DNA of 37,132 nt from Candidatus Desulfaltia bathyphila (GTDB taxonomy: Bacteria > Desulfobacterota > Desulfobacteria > Desulfobacterales > ETH-SRB1): the NCBI GenBank assembly GCA_014381545.1, contig JACNLL010000072.1:1-37132 (forward strand). Direction: 5' to 3'. Under the pieces are notes generated by a model. That model made no database searches. It was not told the origin of the DNA and worked only from the letters and a program-made list of their open reading frames with translations. The stretch's first letter is position 1. Every line of letters begins with the position of its first letter. Below, one piece after another: positions 20,212-26,965 of the stretch. The translations under genes were made by a program, and so were the position numbers.

Positions 20212-21495
20212 ATGACTTGCAGTGCATCCTCAAGCAGAAGACAAAATATCGGATTTGTCTCAACCCGCATTGCGGGAACAGATGGTGTCTCCCTGGAAAT
20301 TGCAAAATGGGCTGACGTTTTTGAAAAGGAAGGATTTAACTGCTTTTATTTTGCCGGTGAGCTTGAACAACCTCCGGATTGTTCGTACCTTGCGGAAGAA
20401 GCCCATTTCAAACACCCTGACATCAAGCATATTAACCAAAACTGCTTTGGAGCCCGCACACGATCACGCTCCATAACAAAAAAGATTCATGAAACTTGTC
20501 AAAAAATAAAGGATCATCTTTATCAATTCATCGAAAAATTCAACATCGATCTTTTGGTCCCTGAAAATGCTCTGTCAATACCGCTCAATATTCCTCTCGG
20601 CATTGCCATTACAGAAGTAATATCAGAAACCGGAATGCCTGTAATAGCTCACCATCATGATTTTTTCTGGGAACGGCAGAATCTCATGACCAACACTGTC
20701 TGGGAATACATCAACATGGCCTTTCCGCCCCATCTGCCGTCAATCTGGCATGTGGTAATCAATTCTTCCGCAGCCAACCAGTTAAGTCTCAGAACAGGGA
20801 TTTCAGCAACTATCATCCCGAATGTAATGGACTTTGACAATCCGCCGGCTCCTCTTGATGATTATGCATCTGATGTGCGAGAAGCCCTTGGAATTGAAGA
20901 TGATGAGCTTTTTATTCTCCAGCCCACAAGGGTTGTAGAACGTAAAGGAATTGAACATGCAATAGAACTTATCAACAGGCTGGGAATGAAGGCCAAACTC
21001 GTTATTTCACACGCCTCTGGTGATGAGGGCCATGATTATGAACAGAGGCTAAAGAAATATTCAAAGCTGATGAATGTTAACACGGTTTTTGTTTCAGATA
21101 TTATTAATGAACAGAGAGGATATACCAAAACAGGAAAGAAAATCTACGATCTTAATGATATTTATCCACATGCCGACCTTGTCACTTATCCTTCCTATGT
21201 TGAAGGTTTCGGCAATGCTTTTCTTGAAGCAATATATTTCCGTAAACCGATAGTAGTAAACACTTATGCAATTTACACGATGGATATCAAGCCAAAAGGG
21301 TTTTCTGCAATAGAAATTAACGGGTATGTAACAGAAAAATCGGTTCGCGAGGCTAAAAAAGTTCTAACAGACCCGGAGTATTACAACAAAATGGTTACTT
21401 GCAACTATGAGATAGCCAGGCGTTACTATTCTTACTCTGTTCTTCATCAAAAACTTAAAAACCTTATTTTAGACTGCATGACTCACAAAGGCTAA
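20212..21495 (+). CDS. GT4-family glycosyltransferase (mannosylglucosylglycerate-synthase-like)
   Basis: A 427-residue GT-B protein. The N-terminal lobe opens IGFVSTRIAGTDGVSLE (donor-side glycine-rich loop) and contains AHHHDFFWERQNL; the C-terminal lobe has PTRVVERKGIEHAI and the GT4 nucleotide-sugar block SYVEGFGNAFLEAIYF. The pattern of the first half resembles, from memory, the family annotated as mannosylglucosylglycerate synthase, which makes a compatible solute; a generic retaining glycosyltransferase is the safer call. No other solute-synthesis gene is next to it. It is soluble, with no membrane segment. The selenoprotein gene follows after 13 bases, so the two may share a transcript. 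Confidence 0.7.
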   Translation: MTCSASSSRRQNIGFVSTRIAGTDGVSLEIAKWADVFEKEGFNCFYFAGELEQPPDCSYLAEEAHFKHPDIKHINQNCFGARTRSRSITKKIHETCQKIKDHLYQFIEKFNIDLLVPENALSIPLNIPLGIAITEVISETGMPVIAHHHDFFWERQNLMTNTVWEYINMAFPPHLPSIWHVVINSSAANQLSLRTGISATIIPNVMDFDNPPAPLDDYASDVREALGIEDDELFILQPTRVVERKGIEHAIELINRLGMKAKLVISHASGDEGHDYEQRLKKYSKLMNVNTVFVSDIINEQRGYTKTGKKIYDLNDIYPHADLVTYPSYVEGFGNAFLEAIYFRKPIVVNTYAIYTMDIKPKGFSAIEINGYVTEKSVREAKKVLTDPEYYNKMVTCNYEIARRYYSYSVLHQKLKNLILDCMTHKG

Positions 21496-21508
21496 GGAGA
21501 AATAAACC

Positions 21509-21736
21509 ATGGCAGAGAAAATTTTGATCTTTGGGAAAAATACTTGACCTTACACAACAGCGGCTCGTGAAGCTTTTGTGAAAAAGGGCAGAGAGGTGGA
21601 ATATTTTGATGTTTTATCAGATGCCGACAAACTAAATACAATGCTTAAATATTCTGATGGAACGCGGAAGGTCCCTGTTATTGTTGACCAGGGAAAGATA
21701 GCCATAGGCTTTAATGGAAGATCGTGAGGCGTTTAG
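21509..21736 (+). CDS. Glutaredoxin-like selenoprotein with two UGA-encoded Sec residues (Uxx-star type)
   Basis: Reading through two TGA codons gives 75 residues: MAEKILIFGKNT-U-PYTTA.., AAREAFVKKGREVEYFDVL, GTRKVPVIVDQG, GFNGRS-U-GV-stop. The first TGA (21545-21547) is at the place of the redox Cys of the thioredoxin-fold C-P-Y-T motif; VPVIVDQG is the cis-Pro strand of glutaredoxins. The second TGA (21725-21727) gives a C-terminal U-G-V-stop, which fits the family I recall as 'UXX-star (seleno)protein'. Each TGA is followed by a hairpin suited to be a bacterial SECIS (see the two entries). AAGGAGA precedes the ATG. SelA is encoded 3.8 kb away. It is 13 bases after the glycosyltransferase. 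A conventional gene call would miss it, as no frame over 60 codons is open. Confidence 0.85.
21553..21580 (+). promoter_or_regulatory. Putative SECIS hairpin for the first UGA
   Basis: CACAA (21553-21557) pairs with TTGTG (21576-21580) and AGC (21559-21561) with GCT (21572-21574), with a C/T internal mismatch and a 10-base loop GGCTCGTGAA. It begins 5 bases after the TGA, where bacterial SECIS elements lie, and its loop has G and U bases as expected for SelB contact. Confidence 0.6.
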
Positions 21737-21737
21737 G

Positions 21738-21761
21738 CATGCCGGCTGTATGCCGGCAATG
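21738..21761 (+). promoter_or_regulatory. Putative SECIS hairpin for the second UGA
   Basis: A perfect 7-bp stem TGCCGGC/GCCGGCA (21740-21746 with 21752-21758) with loop TGTAT, starting 12 bases after the second TGA and just past the final TAG. The loop contains GU. There is no T tract after it, so it is not a terminator. Confidence 0.55.
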
Positions 21762-21771
21762 ATATGTATTT

Positions 21772-22431
21772 ATGAAAAATATGGAAAAACAGTTTCTTAT
21801 CGACGACATTAAAACAGGCGAAGCATGGCGTCTCTTCAAGATCATAGGTGAGTTTGTTGAAGGTGTTGAAACCCTGCATAATGTTGGAGTTGCTGTTAGC
21901 ATATTCGGGTCGTCCAGAATAAAGCCTAATGATCCGATTTATAAAAAAACCGAGGAAATCGCCTCTCTTTTTGTGAAAAACGATTTTGCGGTAATTACCG
22001 GAGGCGGGGGCGGAGTAATGGAAGCGGCAAACAAAGGAGCTGCGATGGCAGGGGGAGCTTCTGTCGGGCTGAATATCGTTCTTCCGTTTGAACAAAAGCC
22101 AAATCAGTATTCCAATATCAAGCTTGAGTTTAACTATTTTTTTATCCGCAAGGTGATGTTTGTTAAGTACGCCACCGCTTACATAATAATGCCCGGAGGT
22201 TTCGGAACACTGGATGAACTGTTTGAATCGGTTACACTGATTCAAACCCATCGTATAAAACCATTTCCTGTAATTCTGGTTGGTTCCGACTACTGGTCCG
22301 GGCTTGTAGAGTGGGTTAAATCCCGTTTGCTTGAAAATAAAATGATATCACCGGAACATCTTGATATTTTACAGGTCATAGATGAACCAAAAGAAATTGT
22401 AAAAGCAGTAAAGAAGATTGTGCTTATCTGA
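21772..22431 (+). CDS. LOG-family (TIGR00730) Rossmann-fold protein
   Basis: A 219-residue protein with the signature PGGFGTLDELFE (near 142-153) and the nucleotide-binding block ITGGGGGVMEAANKGA (near 75-90). LOG-family enzymes are nucleotide 5'-monophosphate phosphoribohydrolases (cytokinin-activation type) or related Rossmann proteins often labelled 'lysine decarboxylase-like'. The catalytic Arg/Glu set appears present (F-I-R-K-V-M-F and the Glu of the PGG motif). It begins 35 bases after the selenoprotein stop with the SECIS-like hairpin between and no clear ribosome site, so it may be read with it. Confidence 0.8.
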   Translation: MKNMEKQFLIDDIKTGEAWRLFKIIGEFVEGVETLHNVGVAVSIFGSSRIKPNDPIYKKTEEIASLFVKNDFAVITGGGGGVMEAANKGAAMAGGASVGLNIVLPFEQKPNQYSNIKLEFNYFFIRKVMFVKYATAYIIMPGGFGTLDELFESVTLIQTHRIKPFPVILVGSDYWSGLVEWVKSRLLENKMISPEHLDILQVIDEPKEIVKAVKKIVLI

Positions 22432-25378: not shown

Positions 25379-25529
25379 CACCAAGAAAGATAGATTCGTA
25401 AAAAGTAGAATTTCTACCCTTTTTGTCATTCCCGCGAAGGCGGGAATCCAGTTCTTTCAAGCACTTATGGACTCCCGCCTTCGCGGGAGTGACTCGACTT
25501 TTGACTTTTTACGATGCCACCAAGAAAGA
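25379..25529. repeat. Hairpin repeat family H, copy 2, between 12-bp direct repeats
   Basis: The outer inverted ends TCGTAAAAAGT (25396-25406) and ACTTTTTACGA (25504-25514) enclose the hairpin arms CATTCCCGCGAAGGCGGGAA and CTCCCGCCTTCGCGGGAG. The 12-mer CACCAAGAAAGA occurs on both sides (25379-25390 and 25518-25529), separated from the ends by 5 and 3 bases. It sits between the lipid kinase and selA and ends 29 bases before the selA start, so it must affect the selA leader. The rest of 25235-25395 has no recognised feature. Confidence 0.7.
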
Positions 25530-25543
25530 GGATATTGGAAAAA

Positions 25544-26965
25544 ATGAAACTAAATGAAAAGAGGCAGGCTTTTTTAAAAATGCTTCCCGGCGTTGATCGT
25601 ATCCTTGAAATTTCAGGAATTGAACCGGCATTTAAAGATATTCCAAAATCTGTTCTGGTTCGGTGCATTCGCCTAATTATCGAAGATCTTCGCATAATTA
25701 TTCTTGACGATAAAATGGAGATTAAAGAAGAAGAGCTGTCTGAAGCCGCGATTCTTGAAAAGGTAAAAGCCGGCACACAGAATGCCATGACTCCAAATCT
25801 TTTGCGTGTAATTAACGCTACAGGCGTTGTTGTGCATACAAACCTCGGCCGGTCAATACTTGCCGCCGAAGCTGTTGCGAACCTATCCCTTATTGCCGGC
25901 AGCTATTCGAATCTGGAGTTTGATCTGTCAAAAGGTGTGCGCGGTTCACGATATAGCGCTGTTGAAGATCTACTGTGTGAAATTAGCAGCGCTCAGGCTG
26001 CCATGGTTGTAAATAATAACGCAGGAGCTGTCTTGCTCTGTCTGGAAACACTATCAAAGGGCAAAAAGGTTATTGTATCAAGGGGGGAACTTGTTGAAAT
26101 CGGCGGTTCATTTCGCATTCCGGATGTAATGGCAAAAAGCGGCGGAATTTTAAAGGAGGTCGGCTCAACAAACCGCACCCATCTGAAAGACTATGAAGCT
26201 GCAATAGAAAGCGATACAGGACTTCTCTTAAAGGTGCATAAAAGCAATTACAGCATAGTGGGTTTTACGGCTGAGGTTTCTGTCAAGGATATGGTTGAGC
26301 TCGGAAAGAAATATCATATTCCTGTCATGGAAGACCTGGGAAGCGGAACCTTTATTGATTTTTCACAATACGGTCTGTTAAAAGAGCCCACTGTCCAGGA
26401 GGCTGTGGCAACTGGTGCGGATGTTGTGACTTTCAGCGGGGACAAGCTCCTTGGAGGTCCGCAGGCCGGCATTATTGTCGGCAAAAAGGATATTCTTGAC
26501 CGGATAAAGCAAAATCCCCTTACAAGGGCGCTGCGGATAGACAAACTGACCCTTGCAGCCCTGGAAAGTACTCTGCGCCTGTATATGGATAAAGATAAAG
26601 CAATTGCCGCAATTCCTACTTTGCGTATGTTGACCCTTCCTTATGATGACATCGCAAAAAAGGCGGACAGGCTTGGCTATCTACTGAAAAATATTAACGA
26701 TGCCCGCCTTTCTATTAAGCTGATCGATCTATCTTCACGGGCAGGAGGCGGGGCGCTTCCGCTTCTTGACTTGCCCAGCAGGTGTGTTGGCATCAATGTG
26801 AAAGGGATATCGGTTAATGTCGTCGAAAGGTACATGCGCAACAATATTCCTCCAATAATAGGAAGGATAGAAGATGATTTGTTTATCATAGACCTCAGAA
26901 CCATACAGGAAGATGAATTGCAGTTTATAGAATCGGCTTTCTCCGGCATGCTCAGAGATCTTTGA
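25544..26965 (+). CDS. selA: L-seryl-tRNA(Sec) selenium transferase
   Basis: A 473-residue PLP enzyme that converts Ser-tRNA(Sec) to Sec-tRNA(Sec) with selenophosphate. Family marks are MLPGVDRIL near the N-terminus, NATGVVVHTNLGRS (near 95), VNNNAGAVLLCL, and the PLP lysine in FSGDKLLGGPQAG at Lys301. Length and order are standard. ATG at 25544 is chosen over 25514, because the earlier codon belongs to the repeat element and the later one has GGA 5 bases upstream and a normal N-terminus. The TGA stop coincides with the first bases of a REP element. It confirms that the organism decodes UGA as Sec, supporting the selenoprotein at 21509. selB and selC are not in the window. Confidence 0.95.
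   Translation: MKLNEKRQAFLKMLPGVDRILEISGIEPAFKDIPKSVLVRCIRLIIEDLRIIILDDKMEIKEEELSEAAILEKVKAGTQNAMTPNLLRVINATGVVVHTNLGRSILAAEAVANLSLIAGSYSNLEFDLSKGVRGSRYSAVEDLLCEISSAQAAMVVNNNAGAVLLCLETLSKGKKVIVSRGELVEIGGSFRIPDVMAKSGGILKEVGSTNRTHLKDYEAAIESDTGLLLKVHKSNYSIVGFTAEVSVKDMVELGKKYHIPVMEDLGSGTFIDFSQYGLLKEPTVQEAVATGADVVTFSGDKLLGGPQAGIIVGKKDILDRIKQNPLTRALRIDKLTLAALESTLRLYMDKDKAIAAIPTLRMLTLPYDDIAKKADRLGYLLKNINDARLSIKLIDLSSRAGGGALPLLDLPSRCVGINVKGISVNVVERYMRNNIPPIIGRIEDDLFIIDLRTIQEDELQFIESAFSGMLRDL

Follow-up and report, generated by a model that had tools for sequence, protein, structure and literature searches.

Proteins of UXX-star selenoprotein family 1 (NCBIfam NF041114) form a family that is already known, and a 2026 review lists them as Distant Grx-like protein 1, with the motif UxxT and two selenocysteine (Sec, U) residues (PMC13188914). 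The gene described here belongs to this family and lies at 21509-21736 on the forward (+) strand of a 37,132-nt stretch of DNA from Candidatus Desulfaltia bathyphila (contig JACNLL010000072.1; the whole stretch is called the window below). Translated with TGA as Sec, it encodes a 75-residue protein, MAEKILIFGKNTUPYTTAAREAFVKKGREVEYFDVLSDADKLNTMLKYSDGTRKVPVIVDQGKIAIGFNGRSUGV, followed by TAG. Judged from the sequence comparisons set out below, the locus almost certainly encodes a genuine two-selenocysteine protein of family 1, in which both UGA codons are decoded as Sec.

Identity and decoding of the gene

The coding sequence (CDS; 21509-21736, 75 codons plus TAG) is preceded by the ribosome-binding site AAGGAG (21494-21499, +), which lies 9 nt before the ATG and overlaps the stop codon of the GT4 gene upstream. 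The first Sec codon (21545-21547, +) specifies U13 in T-U-P-Y-T, at the classical glutaredoxin active-site position, and the second (21725-21727, +) specifies U73, the third codon from the end in U-G-V-stop, from which the frame reads TGA GGC GTT TAG to the true stop at 21734-21736 (+). A preliminary description of the locus had reported two in-frame TGA codons within 21509-21761 and a good ribosome site; its start, its ribosome site and both codons (residues 13 and 73 of 75) stand, but its end does not, as the CDS stops at 21736. On the + strand of a standard open reading frame (ORF) listing, no gene of at least 90 residues covers 21509-21736, and gene-finders of the standard type overlook the gene because its two Sec residues are written as stop codons. 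An altered code, such as UGA read as Trp, was ruled out, since 13 of the 28 ordinary genes in the window end in TGA.

The machinery for Sec incorporation is complete in this genome. The nearby selA gene noticed earlier proved to be a clear L-seryl-tRNA(Sec) selenium transferase (25514-26965, +; TIGR00474, 607.6 bits against a cut-off of 267.9), and selB (374 bits), the tRNA-Sec gene selC (76 bits) and selD (376 bits), whose absence would have spoken against Sec decoding, were all found outside the window in the same assembly. The selD gene (L008, G000:C41) contains an in-frame TGA of its own, and its product, selenophosphate synthetase, is thus probably a selenoprotein as well.

Membership of the UXX-star family, which the preliminary description had put forward, is borne out by a match to NF041114 at 105.5 bits (cut-off 72, E = 1.2e-30) over positions 1-70 of the 70-position model; the parent subfamily NF041212 also scores above its cut-off (81.1 bits against 66). 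The proposed glutaredoxin-like thioredoxin fold agrees with a match to Pfam Glutaredoxin (42.2 bits) and with the AlphaFold2 model discussed below. UXX-star families 2 (NF041211, 50.1 bits, cut-off 100) and 3 (NF047338, 48.3 bits, cut-off 97) are related in sequence and glutaredoxin-like, but score far under their cut-offs, and neither Glutaredoxin 3 (TIGR02181, 33 bits, cut-off 90) nor the glutaredoxin-like YruB family (TIGR02196, 36.1 bits, cut-off 88.55) reaches its threshold. The match is not due to chance, because the E-value applies to the full model and because relatives are spread over several phyla. With UxxT (U13-P-Y-T16), two Sec residues and a C-terminal Sec followed by two residues and a stop, the protein shows no departure from the family layout and is a real and typical member.

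Relatives were collected as family-model matches in whole genomes and, in named species, as matches to a DNA pattern surrounding the first TGA; 159 remained once identical proteins were dropped, and all 49 that were aligned match NF041114. The pattern set was preselected for TGA at the first site and left the second site free of selection. Codon 1 is TGA in 154 of the 159 relatives and Cys in 5, a ratio inflated by this preselection, and further Cys-first proteins are found among additional whole-genome matches. All 159 have TGA as codon 2, so that no relative ends before it, and so do 114 of the 114 assessable pattern-only stretches (117 in total, less L109, which has no family gene, L136, which is truncated, and L173, which is masked). 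The feature that is invariant is thus the C-terminal Sec and not the Sec of the redox motif. A search of plasmids for relatives returned three distant matches and nothing closer.

A TGA so near the end of a gene could be an ordinary stop, and ORF calling by the standard method yields no gene at the locus; the gene might then be a pseudogene, or only the first TGA might be decoded. Such an outcome is very improbable, given that the second TGA is universal, that the next stop lies exactly two codons beyond it in 157/159 relatives (the other two have one extra residue), that nearly all relatives end in V or I, and that a covarying hairpin follows downstream.

Other proteins near the family were also seen. 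Two low-scoring whole-genome matches (L203, L204) lack the tail and are ordinary glutaredoxins. Two glutaredoxins with a CPFC active site carry a UGV- or UGI-stop tail (L192, L193) and may be intermediate between the YruB-like glutaredoxins and the UXX-star proteins. Five loci (L186, L194, L195, L198, L199) encode a UXX-star-like variant with a longer tail, approximately SLRGGIPLFGGTU followed by P, S or A, which does not always end two residues past the Sec; the one member tested exceeds the family 1 cut-off.

The two SECIS hairpins

The bacterial Sec insertion sequence (SECIS) model quoted in the same review places the loop 16-37 nt from the UGA, with a G in the first two loop bases and a minimum free energy (MFE) of at most -7.5 kcal/mol (PMC13188914). 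Both hairpins of the window satisfy it, with loops starting 18 and 19 nt after their UGAs (CGUGA and UGUAU) and MFEs of -12.5 and -16.4. SECIS 1, whose upper stem-loop is GGCU-CGUGA-AGCU (21562-21574, +), lies inside the CDS, whereas SECIS 2, UGCCGGC-UGUAU-GCCGGCA (21740-21758, +), lies wholly in the 3' untranslated region (UTR). The earlier suggestion of a hairpin after each TGA is thereby upheld, as covariation supports both, and refined, in that the second stands entirely past the stop codon.

As SECIS 1 is within the CDS, its conservation is by itself weak evidence, and since its folding-energy z-scores are weak (mean -0.55), covariation is needed to support it. Most informative is a pair between two synonymous third codon positions, one in an Ala codon and the other two codons on: it is UA in 27 and CG in 26 of 57 cases, and the two bases pair in 149 of the 154 Sec-first genes. 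SECIS 1 is also degraded where residue 13 is Cys, its upper stem being complete in 2/13 Cys-first genes, compared with 117/154 Sec-first genes (Fisher p = 2e-5, relatedness ignored). The tip of the hairpin in the window's own MFE fold differs slightly from the covariation-supported fold, and RNAalifold predicted no consensus pairs in the SECIS 1 region.

Downstream of the second TGA, where SECIS 2 lies, the mean folding z-score is -1.79 relative to shuffles, compared with -0.43 to 0.03 in three control stretches. Of 158 relatives, 147 have a hairpin with four or more pairs whose loop falls 16-37 nt after this TGA, and 137 have a G among the first two bases of the loop (controls, 49/156 to 88/159). 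Each of the 7 pairs varies at both partners across 50 aligned sequences, with a covariation score of 0.470 (shuffled, 0.197 +/- 0.019). The stem begins beyond the stop codon in 96.5% of cases. The true stop among the 157 relatives is TGA in 65, TAA in 63 and TAG in 29, and in the TGA-stop members the median distance to the SECIS 2 loop is 19 nt for the Sec UGA and 10 nt for the stop UGA. As 10 nt falls short of the 16-37 nt range of the model (PMC13188914), this spacing would offer a simple reason why only the first of the two UGAs is read as Sec. An intrinsic terminator was ruled out as an identity for the hairpin, with TTTT found within 10 nt in just 7 of 143 cases. Rfam at curated thresholds gave no match in the window, and a literature search for bacterial SECIS elements past the stop codon found nothing on point. 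The hairpin also sits in the short leader (window 21737-21780) of the downstream LOG gene, whose translation it may affect.

Predicted fold and proposed chemistry

AlphaFold2 models the protein as a glutaredoxin fold without the final helix (predicted local distance difference test, pLDDT, 87.5), with bridge residues at 54-55, 68, 71 and 73-74; when the last six residues are removed, the bridges at 54-55 and 68 are lost. The predicted fold is a minimal glutaredoxin, beta-alpha-beta-alpha-beta-beta, with a short Sec-bearing tail in place of the last helix. The top Protein Data Bank (PDB) matches are glutaredoxins (Z about 10), aligned over residues 1-71. Read most simply, the model has the tail paired with the residues preceding cis-Pro56, adjoining residue 13. 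Both the cis state of Pro56 and a substrate-holding site at this place are expected from the thioredoxin fold.

The explanation favoured as a whole, and judged somewhat better than even, is that of a double-Sec glutaredoxin-like oxidoreductase in which each Sec has its own SECIS. It is well supported by the comparisons that each UGA is served by a bacterial SECIS about 18-19 nt downstream, the second lying past the stop codon. The tail would fold back onto the residues that immediately precede the cis-proline (V55-P56), where glutaredoxins hold their substrate, and so place Sec73 beside Sec13. The protein may then act as a thiol/selenol oxidoreductase that alternates between the diselenol form and a Sec13-Sec73 diselenide, or a selenenylsulfide where residue 13 is Cys. 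The main reactivity is assigned to Sec73, with Sec13 as its putative partner, because Sec73 is invariant and residue 13 tolerates Cys. No other Cys is present in 150 of the 159 relatives, so the two Sec residues are usually the only chalcogen pair; this and the predicted docking of the tail make the diselenide or selenenylsulfide pair suggested earlier likelier, and the docking fits, without proving, a U13-U73 diselenide. For the diselenide redox cycle itself, the chances are put at about even.

Several points weigh against the oxidoreductase proposal. Cys was substituted for both Sec residues in the AlphaFold2 input, which may favour a Cys-Cys contact, and no solved structure in the match list spans the tail, the alignment ending at residue 71. 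Among the 159 relatives, the gene neighbourhood, GT4 and LOG included, names neither a substrate nor a reductant. The Fisher test on the SECIS 1 stem takes no account of relatedness. Lastly, a borderline relative just under the family cut-off (L202) has Gly at 13 and keeps the last Sec, which would imply a function without a pair.

This Gly and the Cys variants at residue 13, set beside the invariance of Sec73 (159/159), favour a function of Sec73 alone, with an external thiol resolving its peroxide, selenenyl or substrate chemistry and with Sec13 as an accessory. That most members nevertheless keep a costly Sec at 13, and that SECIS 1 is maintained by covariation, renders this improbable. The main rival to a diselenide oxidoreductase is metal binding: on the scaffold of a glutaredoxin, the two selenols would form a site for soft metals or metalloids (e.g., Hg, As or Cu), and the protein would be a chaperone or scavenger, not a redox catalyst. 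An invariant C-terminal chalcogen would suit a ligand; however, the largest neighbour clusters contain no obvious metal-resistance or transport gene (judged by eye, with only some clusters model-annotated), and the protein retains the classical redox position as well as the cis-Pro loop. Metal binding is accordingly rated as rather unlikely, though the less so of these two alternatives.

Gene neighbourhood and comparison with known systems

Clustering of the genes next to the 159 relatives revealed no universal partner. A LOG gene (TIGR00730) lies downstream on the same strand in 31 relatives and a GT4 gene upstream in 12; about 20 others stand beside divergent HPr/PtsI and about 11 beside a nucleoside-diphosphate-kinase-like gene, these last two names having been given by reading the sequences and not by model search. 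GT4, LOG and the other neighbours look lineage-specific, with no conserved partner set. On a Thermus thermophilus plasmid (NC_017273.1; L185:5995-6255), a Cys-type Uxx-star glutaredoxin-like gene stands in the order hypC-hypC-hypD-hypE-SIS-Uxx-hypF-PIG-L deacetylase, which may point to a connection with hydrogenase-type maturation or with some related pathway.

To the known family, the sequence comparisons add an invariant C-terminal Sec, covariation of both SECIS elements, a SECIS 2 beyond the stop, and members that stop at TGA. A catalogued family thereby becomes a testable case, that of a very small protein with usually two Sec residues as its sole chalcogens, of which the C-terminal Sec never varies. 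Sec decoding can also be studied here in a natural experiment, in which a Sec-UGA and a stop-UGA lie nine nucleotides apart under one SECIS outside the coding region; this bears on the reach of SelB and on how gene-finders handle C-terminal UGA codons. Taken together, it is an evenly poised proposition that these are nearly Cys-free diselenide glutaredoxins whose indispensable C-terminal Sec is inserted through a SECIS wholly in the 3' UTR, and that about 41% of them read one UGA as Sec and the UGA 9 nt on as stop, the distance to the loop (about 19 versus about 10 nt) deciding.

Compared with NF041114, the window member has the same full-length match, the UxxT motif, two Sec residues and a Sec third from the C-terminus. 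With the dithiol glutaredoxins (Grx3; cGrx1, PDB 7c10/7c12) it shares the fold over residues 1-71, the cis-Pro loop and the active-site position 13, but it has Thr16 in place of the second Cys of CPYC and a Sec tail in place of the last helix. In its proposed way of working, it would resemble mammalian thioredoxin reductase, which has a reactive Sec near its C-terminus. That enzyme differs in being an unrelated large flavoprotein, whose Sec is the last residue but one and pairs with the Cys next to it.
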